A stretch of 7,543 nucleotides of DNA from Synergistota bacterium (GTDB lineage: Bacteria > Synergistota > JAGHAJ01). The stretch is taken from NCBI GenBank assembly GCA_021161545.1, contig JAGHAJ010000234.1:1-7543 (forward strand). Reading direction: 5' to 3'. Shown one piece after another: positions 1 through 7,543 of the stretch (positions are counted from its first letter, which is position 1; every line of letters starts with the position of its first letter). Below the pieces are notes generated by a model that was not told where the DNA came from, did not search any database, and worked only from the letters and a program-made list of their open reading frames with translations. The position numbers and the translations under genes are program-made.

Positions 1-174
1 ATAAACATTGGTAAGGATATTGCATATAACCTCTTTTTGTTTTACAATTATAGAGGTGGAGTGTCGTCCTTTAACACTAAATATCTTTTGAGCCCAGACC
101 TTTCTTTCTCTTTGAATATGGATACTGCTGGGGGAAAAGGCCTATCTTTGGAGTATTCCCTTCCTATAGAGTAA
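1..174 (+). CDS. C-terminal fragment of a TamB-like (DUF490) translocation/assembly protein
   Basis: Frame 1 is open from the window edge to a TAA at 172-174, giving the last 57 residues of a protein whose start lies upstream. The fragment alternates polar and hydrophobic residues in short beta-strand-like runs (IGKDIAYNLFLFYNY, then NTKYLLSPDLSFSLNMD, then GLSLEYSLPIE). This matches the usual end of the TamB domain, where a 'GK.l..nLyl.Y' strand is followed by 'YrLs..lsl..e' and a final 'l.l.Y.l.ie' strand. TamB spans the periplasm, helps outer-membrane protein assembly and phospholipid transport, and works with an Omp85 partner. An Omp85 gene lies about 1.2 kb downstream, which supports the call. 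It ends 11 bp before the sigma gene, so the two are probably cotranscribed. The alternative is another beta-rich outer-membrane protein, since only a short tail is visible. Confidence 0.55.
   Translation: MNIGKDIAYNLFLFYNYRGGVSSFNTKYLLSPDLSFSLNMDTAGGKGLSLEYSLPIE
20..48 (+). promoter_or_regulatory. Weak candidate sigma-70-type promoter inside the upstream gene's 3' end
   Basis: TTGCAT at 20-25 and TACAAT at 43-48 are separated by 17 bp. The -10 box matches TATAAT at five of six positions, but the -35 box matches TTGACA at only three. A transcript would start near 55 and read into the sigma gene at 186. It lies inside coding sequence of the TamB-like gene, so it may be chance. It is listed because it is the only promoter-like pair I found upstream of the sigma gene. 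Confidence 0.2.
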
Positions 175-185
175 AGGGGTAAGTA

Positions 186-803
186 ATGATGTGGGAAGAG
201 TATCTTGCATCCCTGTCGAAGGTGAAGCTGCTCTCTGCTGAGGAGGAAGGCAGACTGTGGGTGAGGTTTAAGGAGCAGGGGTGTGAAAAGGCGAGAGAAA
301 AGATAATAGAGTCCTACCAACCGCTCGTGTTCAAGATAGTCAAGGGTATTGGTGCCGGTATGGAGGAGGAGCTCATATTCGACCTTCTGCAGGAGGGTAG
401 CGTTGCACTTATAAGTGCGGTTGACGAGTTTGACTACCACAGGGGTGTGAAGTTTTATACATTTGCGTATTGGAAGATAAAAGGGGCAGTGCTTAACTAC
501 CTTTCGAGAAAGATGCACAGCTATGCCGAGCTTGAGGATAGGGGTAGCATGCAGGTCTCAGATGTAGGGGAAAGGATAGAGATCGGCAGCCTGAAGGATG
601 TGGTTAAGCGCTCTTTGGATGTGCTTTCAGGTAAAGAGAGGGCTGTTATATCGAGCATGTTTGTGGACGGAATGAAACCGAGAGATGTGGCTTTAGACTT
701 CGGTATAAGTGTCTCCCGTGTTTACAAAATAAAGAAAAGGGCAATGAACAAACTAAAAAGGCTGCTTTCTTCCTTCTGGAATGAGTGGAATTCCTCTGAT
801 TGA
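186..803 (+). CDS. Sigma-70 family RNA polymerase sigma factor (regions 1.2, 2 and 4)
   Basis: This 205-residue alternative sigma factor would direct RNA polymerase to a subset of promoters. Residues 15-45 (LLSAEEEGRLWVRFKE onward) resemble region 1.2. Residues about 39-107 are region 2, with the core-binding stretch LLQEGSVALISAVDEFD and the -10-binding helix around VKFYTFAYWKIKGAVLNYL (88-106). Residues about 143-193 are region 4, with LSGKERAVI and the helix-turn-helix PRDVALDFGISVSRVYKIKK. Only about 35 residues (108-142) separate regions 2 and 4, so region 3 is absent or degenerate, although the N-terminus looks more like FliA/SigB types than ECF types. Two ATGs overlap the start (186 and 189). 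A GGGG tract at 176-179 sits 6 or 9 bp away, so either is possible. Lying between a tamB-like gene and bamA, it may control envelope genes, including this cluster. That role is inferred; the family assignment is firm. Confidence 0.9.
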   Translation: MMWEEYLASLSKVKLLSAEEEGRLWVRFKEQGCEKAREKIIESYQPLVFKIVKGIGAGMEEELIFDLLQEGSVALISAVDEFDYHRGVKFYTFAYWKIKGAVLNYLSRKMHSYAELEDRGSMQVSDVGERIEIGSLKDVVKRSLDVLSGKERAVISSMFVDGMKPRDVALDFGISVSRVYKIKKRAMNKLKRLLSSFWNEWNSSD

Positions 804-817
804 GGGGTAAATTTTTA

Positions 818-850
818 ATCCTTCCTGTTATTATATAAATACGGAGGGAT
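818..850 (+). promoter_or_regulatory. Inverted repeat that sequesters the ribosome binding site of the next gene
   Basis: ATCCTTCC (818-825) pairs with GGAGGGAT (843-850) over 8 bp in RNA, with one G-U pair (822 with 846), around a 17-nt A/U-rich loop. The right arm is the Shine-Dalgarno sequence of the TTG-initiated gene at 857, so folding would block its translation. The helix can be extended by pairing the two UUAA tracts at 815-818 and 852-855 across a short bulge (A818 then switches partner). It occupies most of the only sizeable intergenic gap in the window. It could be an RNA thermometer, a translational brake or a protein-binding site. The pairing is visible in the sequence; the function is inferred. 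Confidence 0.45.
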
Positions 851-856
851 GTTAAT

Positions 857-1360
857 TTGCAGTGGAAGAAGTCTATAAAGAGGGCAAAAAAGTGGTTGTC
901 AAAGGCAGAAGTTAGCGAAGACAGAGAGGCTATTTCTTACAGTCTGCTTGCCGTTGCCGAATTGCAGAGGCTGAGAAAAGAGCGTGTGCGTCCTGCAAAG
1001 AGAAATAGGATAGTTGTGGTTGCGGTTATCTCTGTTATAATATGTCTGTTGCTTGTCCCCACTACTTTGAGGGACAACATCCTGCTGATAGAGAAGAAGA
1101 AACAGCAGGAACAGAGGGTATATTTTAGTTTTTCTGACATCAGGCTTGACCTCGGAGATGTGCAGTATTGGGAGTGTGTTGAGCCTGACAAGGTGTCTGC
1201 CACGGAAGATGTTAAGGTGGTGAGAAAGGCCGTTAGCAAGTTCAAGGTGAAACGGAAGAAGCTGCAGCAGAAGTTTCAGGTTATAAAGCTTGTCGAGGTC
1301 GGTATGAGGGAGCTGTATAAGAACAAAGGTGCCTTTACAATGAGGAAAGGGGGAAATTAG
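857..1360 (+). CDS. Single-pass inner-membrane protein of unknown function; candidate anti-sigma or sigma-linked regulator
   Basis: I do not recognise the family of this 167-residue protein. It starts at TTG 857, chosen because GGAGG at 843-847 lies 9 bp upstream. Residues 1-51 are helical and strongly basic (KKSIKRAKKW, RLRKER, PAKRNR). One hydrophobic segment follows at about 52-68 (IVVVAVISVIICLLLVP), then a charged tail of about 100 residues with a possible coiled-coil or helical end (KFKVKRKKLQQKFQ). The positive-inside rule puts the N-terminus in the cytoplasm and the tail in the periplasm. That is the layout of transmembrane anti-sigma factors such as RseA, and the gene directly follows a sigma gene. 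I see no recognisable ZAS zinc motif or RseA-type domain, so this function is only a hypothesis. A structural or accessory role with BamA is the main alternative, because the gene ends 1 bp before bamA and the two are surely cotranscribed. Confidence 0.8.
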   Translation: MQWKKSIKRAKKWLSKAEVSEDREAISYSLLAVAELQRLRKERVRPAKRNRIVVVAVISVIICLLLVPTTLRDNILLIEKKKQQEQRVYFSFSDIRLDLGDVQYWECVEPDKVSATEDVKVVRKAVSKFKVKRKKLQQKFQVIKLVEVGMRELYKNKGAFTMRKGGN

Positions 1361-1361
1361 C

Positions 1362-3095
1362 GTGTGGAGAAAGCCCATTATAGTGGTTGTGCTTGTAGCT
1401 CTGGTGTTTTCGGTCTTTGGGATAGCACTGGCTGACGAAGGTAGAGAGAAGATTACTGCTATAGAGGTGGTAGGAAATCATTATGTGGTTAAGAGTAGGA
1501 TACTTGCGGTCATCAAGCTCAAGGTTGGTGATACATTCTCTCCGGAGAAGGTGAAGGCCGATGTAAGGTCTATATACGAGCTTGGATACTTCCAGAGAGT
1601 CGAAGTATCTACGCAGCCGTATAAGGATGGCGTAAAGGTTATATACAAAGTGGTGGAGAATCCGAAGGTGAAGAAGGTGGTCATACAGGGCAACATATCC
1701 TTGTCCACTGCAGACATAAAGGGAGTTATGTTTACCCAACCGGGTATCATCTTTAATTTCAGGTTCTTAAAGCACGATATAGAGAGGATACTGGACCTTT
1801 ACAGGAAAAATGGTTATGTCTTCACGAAGGTGAAAGATGCGGGTTTCAGGAATGGCATGGTAAAGATTGTCCTTATGGAGACAAAGATACAGAGCATAAT
1901 CATTCAGGGTAACAGGAAGACAAAGAGCTTCGTTATAAGAAGAGAGCTTCTCGTACATCCGGGAGAGGTCTTCAATGCGAAAAAGCTGAGGGTGAGCTTG
2001 AAGCGGTTGCGCGGGCTGGACTACTTTTCAGATGTGAGTGTGGGATTTGAGCCCACCAAGAAGCTGGACGAGATAACGGTCGTTATAACGGTTAAGGAGA
2101 AAAAGACAGGTAGAATAGGCTTTGGTATAGGATACGGCACCGTGAGTGGTTGGAGTGGCGGTATGAGCTATGAGGAGAGGAATTTTAGAGGGCTTGGACA
2201 GAAGCTCTCTGTGGGCTTTGAAGTGGGTGGTAAGAGGGGTTACTACCTGCACTTTGAAGACCCATACATGGATGAGACCCACTGGGGCTTTAAGCTTGGG
2301 ATATACAAGAAGACGTATGAGGACCTGCACTACTACAAAGAGGGGGAGAGCGACCCATACAGCGTATATGACGAGACGAAAGAGGGATTTTATGTTGGTG
2401 CAGGGAGGAAGTTTGGTAGGTGGATTACCGGTTATCTTATATTGGGAGTGGAAGATGTGGACATCACACCTCACGAGGGGTATCCACCTCCACCGTCGGA
2501 TGTGGGTCTTACCGGTAAGAATGCCACCGTCACACTTTCTGTGAAGAGAGATACATTAAACCCCTTGGACGAGGAGTTGAAAGGGGATATAGAGAAGTTC
2601 ACGGTGCAGAAGGCAGGTAGTTTCCTTGGTGGCGAATACGACTATACGAAGTATGTTCTGGAGTTCATATATTACACGCCATTGGAGTTGAAGGGCCTTG
2701 GCATAGAACTTGGGAATCCGCAGATTGGTGCACCCACATTTGCCGTGAGGTTAAAGGGGGGGAAATCTTCTGGAGACCTTCCTTACTTTGAACAGTTCAC
2801 GGTTGGTGGGCCAGATACCCTCAGGGGATATGATGAAGAGTATTTCAGGGGTAACAAGATGTTCGTTGCAAATGTGGAGGTCAGGTTCTATGTCGAAAAG
2901 AACATAGAGCTTGTCATCTTCCATGACTGGGGACGTGCATGGAAAGAGGATGAAAGCTTTGACCTTGGGAATCTTGCAAAGAGCTACGGCATAGGTTTCA
3001 GGGTGAAGACTCCTATAGGGTTTATAAGGCTGGACTTTGGTCACGGTGATCAGGGAGAGAATCATACCTACATAAGTTTTGGTGAGACGTTCTGA
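1362..3095 (+). CDS. bamA: Outer-membrane protein assembly factor BamA (Omp85 family, three POTRA domains)
   Basis: This is the central insertase that folds beta-barrel proteins into the outer membrane. The start is GTG 1362, preceded by the purine-rich AGGAAAGGGGG at 1343-1353. A signal peptide runs to about residue 24 (cleavage after ALA, before DEG). Three POTRA domains follow at about 30-101, 102-175 and 176-248, each opening with a strand ending in GN (VVGN, IQGN, IQGN). The barrel occupies about 250-577: it opens with GFGIGYGTVSGWSGGMSY and NFRGLGQKLS, carries the loop-6 LRGY motif at 487-490 (equivalent to VRGF), and ends in a C-terminal Phe (SFGETF). At 577 residues it is much shorter than E. 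coli BamA (about 810, five POTRAs) and equals typical TamA in size and POTRA number. The ompH-lpxD context favours BamA, but a tamB-like gene upstream leaves a TamA or dual role open. Confidence 0.92.
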   Translation: MWRKPIIVVVLVALVFSVFGIALADEGREKITAIEVVGNHYVVKSRILAVIKLKVGDTFSPEKVKADVRSIYELGYFQRVEVSTQPYKDGVKVIYKVVENPKVKKVVIQGNISLSTADIKGVMFTQPGIIFNFRFLKHDIERILDLYRKNGYVFTKVKDAGFRNGMVKIVLMETKIQSIIIQGNRKTKSFVIRRELLVHPGEVFNAKKLRVSLKRLRGLDYFSDVSVGFEPTKKLDEITVVITVKEKKTGRIGFGIGYGTVSGWSGGMSYEERNFRGLGQKLSVGFEVGGKRGYYLHFEDPYMDETHWGFKLGIYKKTYEDLHYYKEGESDPYSVYDETKEGFYVGAGRKFGRWITGYLILGVEDVDITPHEGYPPPPSDVGLTGKNATVTLSVKRDTLNPLDEELKGDIEKFTVQKAGSFLGGEYDYTKYVLEFIYYTPLELKGLGIELGNPQIGAPTFAVRLKGGKSSGDLPYFEQFTVGGPDTLRGYDEEYFRGNKMFVANVEVRFYVEKNIELVIFHDWGRAWKEDESFDLGNLAKSYGIGFRVKTPIGFIRLDFGHGDQGENHTYISFGETF

Positions 3096-3109: not shown

Positions 3110-4366
3110 TTGTTTCTTAGAGTCGTATCAGCATTTGTGCTGGTCTTGTGGTTTGTCTTTCCAGCACTTTCGCATGCAAGAGTATTGATTAATGTGAAAG
3201 GCGTTCCCCCTGTTTACAGGGGGATAATCTTTTCTGTCGTTAAAAGGGTTGTTAGTGAGGCGTTTGAGCGCCAGAGTGCTAAGAATGTGATTTCGGAAAA
3301 GGATTACTACGCTGATATCCTTAAGGGAGTATTGAATAAGGTTATATCCGGTTATTCGGTTGAGAGGCTTCTAATAGCGGAGAAGGAAGGCACTCTGTGT
3401 GTAGATGTAGAGTTTGTGCCTTCCGGTGAACAGTTCCACAGGGTCGATGTGAAACTTGCGGGGTTTGGTATGTTGCCGAAAGAGGTAAAGGTGCTACTTT
3501 TGGCGGAGATGAAGGAGTTGAAGAAGGCAGTTGCACCCATGATAGTGGGGATACCCATTGAATCGATGGAGTGGGGAGAAGACAGGCTCTTGAACAGGGT
3601 CAATCTGCTTGTTGGGAGGTATGTCCCCGGGTTTAGACTTGCAAACTATGTGGAGGTGAGGGGAAAGAGGATGGTCTTGAGGGTGTCTGCCACTTCTCCT
3701 GTGGTTTTGAAGGTGGATATAGGCATATTTTCAGAGTCTATCCCCCTGCTGCTTTTGAGAAAGGAGAGGCCGACTCTTTTGTCTGTGTCAGACTTTCTCG
3801 TTGGTCTGCCAGTGAAGTGGGTAAACGCCCACAGAAAGGAGATTGTGAATTACATAAAGGCGTATGTGTCCAAACAGAAGGAGCTTTCAAGGTTTGAGAC
3901 GGATATCAGGATATTCCTTCATGTGGGCAGGATTTCGAGGATGGATATGCAGGTGGAGTCGAAGGTTTACAGGATAAAGGTATTGCTTGCCACATACATA
4001 GGTGCGGGTGATAGAGAAACGGAGGTAAACCTGCACTTTGGATATAAACCTGCACCTGACTGGGAGCTGTATATATCCTCCTGGTTTGATGTCAACAGGT
4101 TTGAAGGCAGGAATGCGCTTGGGGTTTTATATTACCTTAACTCTGATTGGTCAGTGGGTACAGAATACGACTTGGAAAGAAAGTCTTTCAAGCTCAAGAG
4201 TATGTATATTTGGGGCAGAAAAGTAGTGGAAGGGTACTATTATCTTAATGGTGGAGGATCGGGGGTGATGTTTGGCTACAAGATTACGGGACATATAAGG
4301 CTTGACTTTGTATATGATTCTGTTAACGAAAAGGAGTTTTATCTGAGACTTTTGAATAATCTTTGA
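3110..4366 (+). CDS. Exported protein of unknown function with POTRA-like repeats and a probable C-terminal beta-barrel
   Basis: I do not recognise the family of this 418-residue protein. The start is TTG 3110, with GAGGGGA at 3094-3100 placed 9 bp upstream. A signal peptide spans about 1-23 (FVLVLWFVFPALSHA). The body shows a repeating layout of about 90 residues: an amphipathic helix, then two strands, then a strand of the type VDVKL (112-116), VDIGI (202-206) or IKVLL (289-293). The second and third units also share IVGIPIESMEW (145-155) and LVGLPVKWV (230-238). This resembles divergent POTRA domains. From about 286 to the end come short alternating strands rich in Tyr, Trp and Gly (LHFGYKP, WELYISSWFDV, ALGVLYYLNSD, VVEGYYYLNGG), consistent with a small outer-membrane barrel of about eight strands, though the last residue is Leu rather than Phe. 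Its place between bamA and ompH suggests a role in outer-membrane assembly. The domain reading is by eye. Confidence 0.82.
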   Translation: MFLRVVSAFVLVLWFVFPALSHARVLINVKGVPPVYRGIIFSVVKRVVSEAFERQSAKNVISEKDYYADILKGVLNKVISGYSVERLLIAEKEGTLCVDVEFVPSGEQFHRVDVKLAGFGMLPKEVKVLLLAEMKELKKAVAPMIVGIPIESMEWGEDRLLNRVNLLVGRYVPGFRLANYVEVRGKRMVLRVSATSPVVLKVDIGIFSESIPLLLLRKERPTLLSVSDFLVGLPVKWVNAHRKEIVNYIKAYVSKQKELSRFETDIRIFLHVGRISRMDMQVESKVYRIKVLLATYIGAGDRETEVNLHFGYKPAPDWELYISSWFDVNRFEGRNALGVLYYLNSDWSVGTEYDLERKSFKLKSMYIWGRKVVEGYYYLNGGGSGVMFGYKITGHIRLDFVYDSVNEKEFYLRLLNNL

Positions 4367-4368
4367 TT

Positions 4369-4376
4369 AAGGAGGT
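4369..4376 (+). promoter_or_regulatory. Strong Shine-Dalgarno site that fixes the ompH start
   Basis: AAGGAGGT is a near-perfect complement to the 16S rRNA 3' end and lies 7 bp before ATG 4384. It decides between that ATG and an in-frame TTG at 4363, which would overlap the previous gene and add seven residues (MIKEVVS) ahead of a standard signal peptide. It is the best ribosome binding site in the window, consistent with high expression of an abundant periplasmic chaperone. Confidence 0.8.
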
Positions 4377-4383
4377 AGTTTCT

Positions 4384-4839
4384 ATGAGGAAGGTTGTTGG
4401 TCTGGTGGTGATTGTTGGTATGATGGTCGTGCTGATGGGAGGTTTTGTTTATGCTGCTACGCCCTCTATAAGGATTGGGGTGGTTGACATATCTTACCTT
4501 ATGAACCATCACCCCAAAGCAAACAGTGTCAGGGCGAAGATAAAAGCCCTTCTCAGGGAGAACCAGATAAAGTTTGACAAAGAGGTGAAGGCAAAGAACC
4601 TGTCGAAGAAACAGCAGGCAGAACTCTTTTACAAGATGAAGGCCAAACTGGATAAACAGGAGAAGTCCCTACTTGCAAATCTATTTAAGGACGTTAGCCT
4701 TGCCATAAGGCAGATTGCAAGGAAGAGGCATATCTCCATTGTGTTTGAAAAGCGGGCAGTGATTTATGGAGGCATAAACATCACGCAGGATGTCTTGAGG
4801 CTCCTGAAACTGAAATACCCTTCCTCCAAGAAGAAATGA
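4384..4839 (+). CDS. ompH: OmpH/Skp family periplasmic chaperone
   Basis: Skp-type chaperones form trimers that hold unfolded outer-membrane proteins in the periplasm and deliver them to BamA. This protein is 151 residues from ATG 4384, slightly shorter than E. coli Skp. A signal peptide covers about 1-24 ([18 protein letters not shown], ending VYA). The mature N-terminus has the family strand [19 protein letters not shown] Lys-, Gln- and Glu-rich helical hairpin follows (about 45-105), which would form the tentacle arms. The end has the conserved pattern [21 protein letters not shown], which closes the trimer body, and a Lys-rich tail. It lies between the 3110-4366 gene (17 bp gap) and lpxD, whose ATG overlaps its TGA, the same bamA-skp-lpxD arrangement seen in many diderms. 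Confidence 0.9.
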
Positions 4840-5870
4840 AGGTAAGAACCTTAGCTACTGTGCTCGGTTGCAGGGTGGAGGGGACAGAAGATGTGGATGT
4901 CCTGGGGGTAGCTCCCCTGCAGGATGCTACACCTACAGACATCTCGTTTGTTGAGAGTACAAAGATGCTTTCTGCTGCAAGGAATAGCAGGGCTGCTGCC
5001 TTTTTGGTGGGGGAAGATGTGCCTTTCTGGGGAAAACCCATTCTTAGGGTCAGAGGTAATCCGAGGGTCATCCTTGCCAGAATGCTGAAGCTCTTTGCAC
5101 CTGCTGTCTCTCTGCCGGATGTGGGGCTTCACCCATCCGTTGTCGTGCAGGAGGGTGTGAGGATGGGTAAGAGCGTCAGAATCGGTGCAAATACATATAT
5201 AGGCAGGGATGCCCAGATAGGAGAAGATGTGGCAATCTTCTCAAACTGCTACATAGGGGATAGGGTCGTTGTAGGTGATGGAAGTGTGATATACCCCAAT
5301 GTCGTTGTGAGAGAAGATGTGTGGATGGGTAGGGGCGTTAAGATACACAGTGGTGCGGTGATAGGGGCAGATGGCTTTGGATATACCGTTGATGAGAATG
5401 GGGGTATCCTGAAGATCCCGCAGATAGGCGGTGTTATCCTTGAAGATGGGGTAGAAATAGGCGCCAATACCACGATAGACAGATCCACGATGGGATTTAC
5501 CGTTATTGGTAAGAATACGAAGTTAGACAATCTCGTTCATGTGGCGCACAATGTTACTATCGGGGAGAACTGCTTTATAGCTGCACAGGTTGGCATTGCG
5601 GGTAGTAGTAGGATAGGCAACAATGTCATTTTTGCAGGGCAGTGCGGGGTGAGAGACCATGTGTCGGTTGGTGATAATGTGAAGGTTGCAGCACGTTCCG
5701 GGATAACAAGGAATATCCCTGCTGGTGCATTTGTTTCAGGGTTTCCGGCAAGAGACCACGGTAAAGACCTTAGGATTCAGGGGCTTATCTGGAAGTTGCC
5801 GGAGCTATTTCAGAAACTCTCAAGACTTGAAAACGAGGTTGAGGAGATGAAGAAGGGTGCTTCAGGATAG
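4836..5870 (+). CDS. lpxD: UDP-3-O-acylglucosamine N-acyltransferase LpxD
   Basis: LpxD catalyses the third step of lipid A synthesis in the cytoplasm, moving a 3-hydroxyacyl chain from ACP to the 2-amino group of UDP-3-O-acylglucosamine to give the 2,3-diacyl product. At 344 residues it is close to E. coli LpxD (341). The N-terminal nucleotide-binding domain covers about 1-98 ([17 protein letters not shown]). A left-handed beta-helix of hexapeptide repeats runs from about 100 to 310, including VIGADGFGY and [12 protein letters not shown]. The catalytic histidine lies in HVAHN at residue 238, and a second histidine at 275 (VRDH) matches the E. coli His239/His276 pair. A C-terminal helix (about 315-340) has the usual trimer-tail character. 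The start is the ATG overlapping the ompH stop (ATGA). The upstream ribosome binding site is weak, so translation is probably coupled to ompH. Confidence 0.96.
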
Positions 5871-6702
5871 ACAGACCACGATACGCAGAGCGGTTAGTTG
5901 TGAAGGCAGAGGTTTGCACACCGGTGAGAGGGTGAAGCTGATTTTTCTACCTGCTGATGCAGATACCGGTATAATCTTTAGGAGGACGGACTTAGATGGC
6001 AGGCCAGAGGTAAAGGTGGACCTGAGGGTAAGCAATGTTGAGGTCAAGAGGGGCACGGTCCTTGTAGGCAACGGCATAAAGTTCTTCACGGTAGAGCATC
6101 TTTTGTCTGCCGTTGTTGGTATGGGTGTTGATAACCTCATAATAGAGCTTGATAACGTAGAGCCACCTGCCATGGATGGGAGTGCAAAGCCCTTTGTAGA
6201 ACTGATAGAAAGTGCAGGGATAAGACACATGGATACCCCTGCGAGGTATGTATGCCTGAAAGAAGCCGTGTGGGTGGATGATGGAGGTGGCTTTATAGCT
6301 GCGATTCCAGATGAGAGGCTCAAGATATCTTATATGATAGACTTTTACCACCCCCTTGTGGGGACACAATTTATATCTCAGGTGATGGATAAGAACCTTT
6401 ACAAGAACAGGATAGCACCGGCAAGGACATTTGGGTTTGCTTACGAAATAGATGAACTCTATGCACGGGGGCTTGCAAAGGGTGGAAGCCTTGAGAATGC
6501 AGTTGTCATTGGTGAGTATGACATACTGAATCCTGAAGGGCTCAGGTTCGAAGATGAGTTTGTGAGACACAAGGTCTTAGACCTCATGGGGGATATTACC
6601 TTCTTGAATGGAAGGTTAAGGGCGCATATAGTAGTGCTTAAGGGTGGACATGCCATGCACCTGAAACTGATAAAGAGGATAGTGGAAAGGGGGTGCTTGT
6701 AG
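5857..6702 (+). CDS. lpxC: UDP-3-O-acyl-N-acetylglucosamine deacetylase LpxC
   Basis: LpxC is the zinc deacetylase that carries out the committed second step of lipid A synthesis, removing acetate from the LpxA product. The 281 residues are compact compared with E. coli (305). Diagnostic sites are GRGLHTG near the N-terminus, TVEHL at 78-82 with catalytic Glu80 and zinc ligand His81, [27 protein letters not shown] with zinc ligands His238 and Asp242, and GGHAMH with His265. The last three share E. coli numbering. The start is GTG 5857: an in-frame TGA at 5848-5850 rules out anything upstream, and GAGGAGAT at 5841-5848 can serve as ribosome binding site. It overlaps lpxD by 14 bp in another frame, so the two are probably translationally coupled. 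Having lpxC between lpxD and fabZ differs from E. coli. Confidence 0.97.
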
Positions 6703-7161
6703 TTGATAGACATAGAGAAGATAAAGCAGAGCATACCACACAGGTATCCATTTCTTTTGGTTGACAGGATTCTGGAGATAGCGGAGACGTCCATCGTCGG
6801 GCTCAAGAATGTTACTATAAATGAACCGTTCTTTCAGGGACACTTTCCAGATGAGGCGGTTATGCCGGGTGTTCTGATATTGGAATCTATGGGACAGGTT
6901 GCATCCATGATGATTCTGAACAAAGAAGAGTTTTGTGGTAAGGTTATCTACTTAACTGGTATAGATAAGGCGAAGTTTAGAAAGCCTGTGTTTCCGGGGG
7001 ATACACTGATTACAAGGGCGGAAGTCTTGAGGCTTAGAGGGAATATTGGGAAGGTGAAAGCAAGGGCGTTTGTGAACGATAAGCTCGTTGCAGAGGCCGA
7101 GTATTCGTTCGTGGTTATGGACAAACTGCCTTCTAATAGATGGGAGGAATCGAGTGAATGA
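6703..7161 (+). CDS. fabZ: (3R)-hydroxyacyl-ACP dehydratase FabZ
   Basis: FabZ dehydrates (3R)-hydroxyacyl-ACP to trans-2-enoyl-ACP in type II fatty-acid elongation. It competes with LpxA and LpxD for the same hydroxyacyl-ACP pool, which explains why it sits among the lpx genes. The 152 residues form a single hot-dog fold. Motifs are IPHRYPFLLVDRI (11-23), the active-site region FFQGHFPDEAVMPGVLILE with catalytic His47 and Glu61 (spaced as His54/Glu68 in E. coli), and the later PVFPGD. The start is TTG 6703, directly after the lpxC TAG and in the same reading frame. The purine tract GGAAAGGGGG at 6684-6693 lies 9 bp upstream, and the family N-terminus is retained, so this start is well supported. 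The C-terminal tail after FVVMDK is slightly longer than needed for the fold. Confidence 0.96.
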   Translation: MIDIEKIKQSIPHRYPFLLVDRILEIAETSIVGLKNVTINEPFFQGHFPDEAVMPGVLILESMGQVASMMILNKEEFCGKVIYLTGIDKAKFRKPVFPGDTLITRAEVLRLRGNIGKVKARAFVNDKLVAEAEYSFVVMDKLPSNRWEESSE

Positions 7162-7543
7162 TTGATAGAACAGCAAAAGTCTCTCCAGAGGCAGAGATAG
7201 ACGATGATGTCGATATAGGACCGTACAGCTTTGTGGAGGGAAGGGTGAGAATAGGAAAGGGCACCCGTATAGGTGCATCTGTGTATATACACAGTGGCAC
7301 AGCTATAGGAGCGAGGTGCACCATCTACCACAATGTAGTGATAGGGACTCCCCCACAGCACTTTGCATTTAAGGGGGAAGAGAGCTTCATTGTAATAGGT
7401 GATGATGTGACTATCAGGGAGATGGTTACCATACACAGGGCAACCGGTGAGGGACAGAAGACCGTGGTTGGTGATGGTTCCTATCTGATGGTCGGTGCAC
7501 ATGTGGGGCACAACTGTGTGGTGGGTAGGAAGGTCATCCTTTC
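7158..7543 (+). CDS. lpxA: Acyl-ACP--UDP-N-acetylglucosamine O-acyltransferase LpxA (3' end cut by window)
   Basis: LpxA performs the first, reversible step of lipid A synthesis, transferring a 3-hydroxyacyl group from ACP to the 3-OH of UDP-GlcNAc. The 128 visible codons are the N-terminal half of a family of about 260 residues; the rest lies past the window. The start MIDRTAKVSPEAEI is typical, followed by hexapeptide coils (IGPYSFVEG, IGKGTRIGA, YIHSGTAIGA). The loop GTPPQHFAFKGE, then VTIREMVTIHRAT, and GAHVGHNC with catalytic His118 (E. coli His125) are diagnostic. The ATG overlaps the fabZ TGA (ATGA) and GGAGG at 7143-7147 is the ribosome binding site. Whether it prefers UDP-GlcNAc or the diamino sugar used by some deep-branching bacteria cannot be read from this fragment. 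Confidence 0.95.
   Translation, partial: MIDRTAKVSPEAEIDDDVDIGPYSFVEGRVRIGKGTRIGASVYIHSGTAIGARCTIYHNVVIGTPPQHFAFKGEESFIVIGDDVTIREMVTIHRATGEGQKTVVGDGSYLMVGAHVGHNCVVGRKVIL

Follow-up and report, generated by a model that had tools for sequence, protein, structure and literature searches.

A sigma factor gene and the gene for a single-pass membrane protein form a real, widely conserved pair that is tied to outer-membrane genes in several distantly related groups of diderm bacteria. We consider it probable (at about 0.7) that the pair consists of a dedicated outer-membrane sigma factor and a membrane-bound anti-sigma factor that act in a feedback loop. The preliminary description of this DNA had proposed an anti-sigma role from topology and position. 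That cognate sigma/anti-sigma reading, in which binding and inhibition are the proposed steps, now finds support in the conservation and co-inheritance of the pair, its joint loss from genomes that keep bamA, its joint retention where the two genes are unlinked, the predicted topology, and a promoter-like motif with a second site. Little is known about how outer-membrane building is regulated outside the Proteobacteria, and the outer membrane of the diderm Terrabacteria has a debated history. A regulator that lies within the bamA operon in Synergistota, Negativicutes, Armatimonadota, and other groups is a concrete, testable candidate: a promoter and two target loci are predicted for it, and it is found in cultivable species (Thermanaerovibrio acidaminovorans and Aminobacterium colombiense).

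Gene order and inheritance of the pair

The window, the whole 7,543-base stretch that was analyzed, comes from a 1.58-Mb, 82%-complete genome of an early-branching Synergistota lineage, which forms its own family within the phylum (185 Synergistota genomes). Its genes lie on one strand, mostly overlapping or a few bases apart, in the order [tamB end]-sigma-membrane protein-bamA-418-aa gene-ompH-lpxD-lpxC-fabZ-lpxA (Table 1). The open reading frames for a sigma-70 protein, a small membrane protein, and the bamA, ompH, and lpx products were found as first described. In most Negativicutes and Armatimonadota loci (most of L093 to L172), a homologue of the 418-aa protein is likewise encoded after bamA and before ompH; the C-terminus of the protein looks rich in beta strands.

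Table 1. Features of the 7,543-base window, with the evidence for each where given
Feature	Position	Strand	Evidence
3' end of upstream gene, probably tamB	1..174	+	57-aa C-terminal peptide alignment
Sigma factor, sigma-70 family, regions 2 and 4, without region 3; 205 aa	186..803	+	
Sigma region 2	303..512	+	PF04542, residues 40-109
Sigma region 4	615..758	+	PF04545, residues 144-191
Ribosome-binding site GGAGGG of membrane-protein gene	843..848	+	Sequence
Single-pass membrane protein, proposed anti-sigma factor, new family; 167 aa, TTG start	857..1360	+	
Cytosolic helical hairpin, residues 2-43, proposed sigma-binding domain	860..985	+	AF2, family conservation
Transmembrane segment, about residues 52-70	1010..1066	+	Hydropathy 2.9; AF2 helix 51-92
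Periplasmic C-terminal helix, proposed sensor or docking motif	1232..1327	+	AF2 helix 126-157; C-terminal motif conserved by clade
bamA	1362..3095	+	POTRA, Omp85, TIGR03303 269.9 bits
Uncharacterized conserved 418-aa protein	3110..4366	+	No Pfam/NCBIfam family; homologues at same place in other loci
ompH/skp	4363..4839	+	PF03938
lpxD	4836..5870	+	TIGR01853 over cutoff
lpxC	5857..6702	+	TIGR00325 over cutoff
fabZ	6703..7161	+	TIGR01750 over cutoff
lpxA, cut by window end	7158..7541	+	TIGR01852, partial

The peptide encoded at the start of the window matches the extreme C-terminus of TamB-sized open reading frames upstream of sigma in three other loci (L172, L124, and L134; E values of 0.002 to 0.02), and the TamB-sized open reading frame upstream of sigma in L122 is PF04357 TamB. 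By this alignment, the first 174 bases look like the C-terminus of tamB. The genes upstream of the pair in the Negativicutes locus tested are tolC and tamB. Together, these two loci indicate that the pair is wedged between tamB and bamA, rather than placed at the head of an operon as had been thought at first. TamB-sized open reading frames also precede sigma in most of the others; in most Synergistota tamB is gone and a histidine phosphatase-like gene lies upstream of the pair. In Veillonella parvula, tamB and bamA adjoin in locus-tag order (PMC5491611), and that lineage therefore appears to be without the pair.

We first saw sigma, the membrane protein, and bamA in succession in 60 relatives, and the same trio stands in the same order in most of the Synergistota, Negativicutes, Armatimonadota, ANGP1, and Halanaerobiales loci examined. 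A scan of genome contigs for relatives with a single protein found nothing, and a scan with the sigma alignment was needed. Applied to named genomes, the alignment recovered relatives in the Negativicutes, Halanaerobiales, Armatimonadetes, ANGP1, and unclassified Bacillota, and most of these non-Synergistota sigma genes are followed by genes for a one-transmembrane-segment protein, BamA, a homologue of the 418-aa protein, and OmpH. The aligned membrane proteins varied too much to be scanned for as a pattern; the partner was found across 237 sigma loci with an iterated profile of its N-terminal domain. This domain is encoded directly downstream of sigma in 230 of the 237 loci and nowhere else within them, and the adjacency of the two genes therefore exceeds chance. 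Nearly all loci long enough to include the following gene have bamA there, which bears out the conservation beside bamA that had been proposed as a check on the pairing. Of the seven loci that deviate, three are contig ends and four belong to Selenomonadaceae. Two genomes carry the sigma gene in two copies (G006, contigs C60 and C85; G135, contigs C253 and C219), and G135 carries the whole pair twice, which reflects either duplication or assembly redundancy.

Searches of the 185 Synergistota genomes detected the membrane protein in 160 and sigma in 156; both occur in 156, sigma never occurs alone, and the rest have neither. The four genomes in which the membrane protein seems to stand alone are explained by contig edges or a false match: sigma is cut at a contig end in G065, the membrane-protein fragments of G093 and G179 lack the N-terminus and probably lie at contig ends, and the match in G078 is a false one inside a 1049-aa frame. 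Six high-quality genomes (G001, G013, G016, G028, G030, and G036) keep bamA and have lost both sigma and the membrane protein. In the four Selenomonadaceae (G185 to G188), the membrane protein stands beside bamA with unrelated genes upstream, and a sigma factor of the same family is encoded alone elsewhere. The pair is thus lost together and kept together, even when unlinked, and bamA alone is insufficient to keep the membrane protein. Homologues of the membrane protein beside bamA in sigma-less genomes would, according to the preliminary description, have told against a partnership; membrane-protein genes beside bamA that lack an adjoining sigma gene occurred only where sigma sits elsewhere in the genome. 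The split-operon Selenomonadaceae loci are L256 to L259, L269 to L272, L140, L150, L157, and L160.

A distance-matrix (mirror-tree) test gave high values for every pair of cluster proteins and did not single out sigma and the membrane protein from BamA. Mean-field coupling over 230 pairs (Neff of 141) gave interprotein scores above those of a within-clade re-pairing null, and these scores are not used as evidence because re-pairing also removes shared ancestry.

The two proteins and known sigma/anti-sigma systems

The window sigma factor matches Sigma70_r2 (E value of 1e-12) and Sigma70_r4 (5e-8) in Pfam. Both regions were found in all 17 sigma relatives searched and Sigma70_r3 in none (0/17), and the relatives begin with a weak region 1.2-like segment. 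An architecture of regions 2 and 4 without region 3 is that of the ECF (group 4) sigma factors, but ECFs are not the closest sequence relatives: the Pfam Sigma70_ECF match is weak and present in 4 of the 17 relatives. The best PDB matches of the sigma profile are WhiG, SigF, RpoS, SigB, and FliA, with WhiG at the top, and the NCBIfam models that follow the superfamily model are WhiG, RpoH, and FliA. Judged from these profiles, the protein combines an ECF-like architecture with the sequence of group 3 sigma factors, in agreement with the earlier assignment to a class other than that of RpoE.

The membrane protein belongs to a family with a common layout of a cytosolic helical hairpin, one transmembrane segment, a variable linker, and a conserved C-terminal helix. 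An alignment of 32 relatives contains an N-terminal motif, KxIxRIxRWLERxxxAxxxGxxExALxxxECAxAELExLR, and a C-terminal motif, LxQxGQRALR, and the hairpin is the most conserved part of the family. The AF2 model of the window protein has helices at residues 2 to 19 and 22 to 43 (pLDDT above 90), a transmembrane helix, a disordered linker, and a C-terminal helix at residues 126 to 157; the hairpin reached a pLDDT above 90 in two AF2 models. A single transmembrane segment with a cytoplasmic N-terminus had been predicted before, and the positive-inside rule places the N-terminus inside in 205 of 230 homologues. Likewise, the earlier statement that no known anti-sigma domain is seen agrees with searches of Pfam, NCBIfam, and PDB sequences, which assigned the 167-aa protein to no family; in Pfam, the window protein and eight homologues gave no family above the cutoff, with Sigma_reg_N appearing only at an E value of 0.02. 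By these searches the protein defines a new family, which current annotation leaves unnamed. An artificial fusion of sigma and the membrane protein (natural in-frame loci read through stop codons) was modeled with AF2 and contained a well-folded hairpin, with a pTM of 0.57 and without an interface measure. A structure search with this model recovered only the sigma fold and barely probed the hairpin part; docking of the hairpin on sigma, which we propose, was not confidently modeled in the fusion.

The pair resembles RpoE (sigmaE) and RseA of the Proteobacteria in that a sigma gene is followed in one operon by the gene for a single-pass, N-in membrane protein and in that the predicted targets are outer-membrane and lipid A genes. 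In that system the anti-sigma factor binds its sigma factor, which is released by regulated proteolysis, and the sigma factor transcribes its own operon along with envelope genes. The pair differs in several respects. In sequence the sigma factor does not resemble RpoE; the cytosolic domain, predicted to be a two-helix hairpin, has no RseA-type family match and shows no RseA N-terminal (ASDI-like) domain in Pfam; the operon is without an rseB-like gene; and the pair lies inside a tamB-bamA gene block and has a small predicted target set. Class I anti-sigma factors are also encoded beside their sigma factor, with a cytosolic N-terminal domain and often one transmembrane segment, but their ASDI domain has four helices and about 100 residues (PMC7406223), whereas the domain found here has two helices in about 45 to 60 residues and no family match. 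Cytosolic domains under 50 aa have been set apart as possible class II anti-sigma factors (PMC7406223). The short cytosolic part and transmembrane segment recall this class (CnrY type), in which two cytosolic helices clamp sigma2 and sigma4, and the size and helices of the hairpin fit it, but a PDB search found no sequence similarity and the sigma factor is not an ECF of the kind that partners CnrY. WhiG of Streptomyces, the best PDB sequence match of the sigma profile, is paired with RsiG, a helical-hairpin anti-sigma factor that is soluble and controlled by c-di-GMP; in contrast, the membrane protein is membrane anchored, and its sigma factor is without region 3. In diderm Firmicutes (Antunes et al. 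2016, PMC5007114), outer-membrane genes form the same cluster of tamB, bamA, skp, and lpx. The main text of that paper mentions no sigma or anti-sigma factor, and searches of open-access papers, at the level of their main text, found no mention of the pair.

A promoter-like motif and its second site

Most Synergistota have a promoter-like motif, GCCACAAA-N13-G[GT]GATAAT, between the sigma and membrane-protein genes. A motif search of this junction in 108 non-redundant Synergistota loci returned it as GCCACAaa-N13-G[GT]GATAATa, with a log-likelihood of 605 compared to about 60 for shuffled sequences, an occupancy of 66%, and a spacer of 13 in 94%. Read as -35 and -10 elements, it consists of GCCACA and GATAAT separated by 17 bases, with GCCAC invariant. 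Its position varies from inside the 3' end of sigma to 86 bases past the stop codon while the spacing is constant, which speaks for a promoter and not for coding conservation. Motifs of 12 and 14 bases were rejected as a product of the conserved coding sequence for the sigma C-terminus. The exact pattern has 55 matches in the 185 genomes, about 26 of them at the junction, versus 9 for a reversed control. In Synergistota (e.g., L228, L240, and L248), the -35 element and the codons for the conserved C-terminus of sigma (DAT[SN]RA-like) overlap, and the conservation of this C-terminus as protein may stem from the promoter.

The junction in the window does not contain the motif (matrix score of 1.9), and the window genome has no exact match, so the promoter part of the argument rests on relatives and not on the window. 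The -35 part is missing in family f3, and in genus g8 the motif is found at the dehydrogenase-like gene described below, with none seen at the junction of G007. A two-block motif search of the Negativicutes junctions yielded no credible promoter. These junctions (L093 to L172) are long, with a median of about 150 bases, and a GGAATATAA/GGATTATAA element that recurs in them near the downstream gene, spotted by eye in its GGAATATAA-like form, is statistically unconfirmed.

Other promoter-positioned sites of the motif lie before a Gfo/Idh oxidoreductase gene and before dnaG. The best NCBIfam model for the oxidoreductase is UDP-GlcNAc 3-dehydrogenase, below the cutoff (244.8 of 450 bits). In known pathways this enzyme helps make the amino-sugar precursor for LpxA, and a role in lipid A synthesis is therefore likely, by analogy, for the dehydrogenase-like gene. 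In an out-of-sample test, a matrix trained on the junctions was scored upstream of this gene in 50 genomes, where the 99% level of shuffled sequences was 12.5. The second site exceeded this level in 44 of the 45 sigma-bearing genomes, with a median of 22.3. It was weakened in four of the five sigma-less genomes (G013, G016, G030, and G036, with scores, from highest to lowest, of 17.0, 16.0, 11.8, and 7.7 and key positions changed), all of which keep RpoD. The fifth, G078, has no detectable sigma, yet its site is intact (24.7), which makes it a counterexample unless its assembly is incomplete. Within genus g8, the three sigma-less genomes all scored below all 20 sigma-bearing genomes (p of about 0.003, uncorrected for shared ancestry).

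The sites were also located over longer stretches. Within 800 kb of G024, intergenic scores of at least 20 were reached only at the junction (25.3) and the dehydrogenase site (20.7); a third score of at least 20 (21.8) is antisense within an open reading frame, and overall matrix counts in this genome were near control levels, barely above them. Within 389 kb of G007, only the dehydrogenase site scores 18 or more. That the sigma factor directs transcription of its operon and of other envelope genes is thus a prediction from relatives, which carry the motif at the junction and also upstream of a lipid A-type gene; the window is without it.

Proposed mechanism and alternatives

In the proposed mechanism, the sigma factor would direct RNA polymerase to a promoter with a -35 element of GCCACA, a 17-base spacer, and a -10 element of G[GT]GATAAT. 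In most Synergistota this promoter would lie between the sigma and membrane-protein genes, so that sigma would drive its own inhibitor together with bamA and skp/lpx, and the second promoter would bring the UDP-GlcNAc-3-dehydrogenase-like gene under the same control. We infer that the cytosolic hairpin would bind and inhibit sigma by holding it at the membrane, that the periplasmic tail with its conserved end helix would monitor outer-membrane assembly, and that the membrane protein would release sigma upon an assembly signal.

Co-occurrence, co-loss, and the presence of a hairpin domain all show a partnership and not its sign, and the membrane protein could be a positive partner of sigma (a tethered co-activator, chaperone, or localization factor) instead of an inhibitor. 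We regard this as unlikely, since an N-in single-pass protein whose gene directly follows that of an alternative sigma factor is typically an anti-sigma factor (RseA and class I; PMC7406223), although this precedent is not decisive. Alternatively, the membrane protein could be an accessory of BamA or of outer-membrane assembly that adjoins sigma only through the shared bamA operon, as might be suggested by its staying beside bamA in the four Selenomonadaceae from which sigma has moved away and by the correlation of the sigma, membrane-protein, and BamA distance matrices. This is very unlikely given that six high-quality genomes keep bamA and have lost the pair, that no sigma-bearing genome among the 185 Synergistota is without the membrane protein, and that the most conserved part of the protein is cytosolic.

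The motif itself might serve a different sigma factor (RpoD or FliA) as its promoter and would then say nothing about the sigma factor of the pair. The -10 element GATAAT is one base off TATAAT and resembles the -10 element of FliA, and G078 retains the second site without a detectable sigma. However, the invariant GCCAC at 17 bases differs from TTGACA, the site is weakened in the four sigma-less genomes even though they keep RpoD, and the two top-scoring intergenic sites within 800 kb of G024 are precisely those at the junction and the dehydrogenase gene. We therefore consider it distinctly improbable that the motif belongs to another sigma factor.

If the two proteins do work as sigma and anti-sigma factor, the pair may be a general and evolutionarily old means of controlling how the outer membrane is built. 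A more specific and tentative proposal, to which we give somewhat less than even odds, is that of an ancient checkpoint linking the capacity of BamA to the early steps of lipid A synthesis. The C-terminal helix would read assembly, and freed sigma would raise bamA, skp, lpx, and the precursor gene together, possibly already in the common ancestor of several diderm Terrabacteria lineages.

From the placement of motif sites, the sigma factor may also touch the dnaG-rpoD operon. The motif lies 37 to 39 bases before dnaG in L309 and L310 (genomes G135 and G136) and about 2 kb upstream of rpoD in L306 and L307 (G045 and G053).
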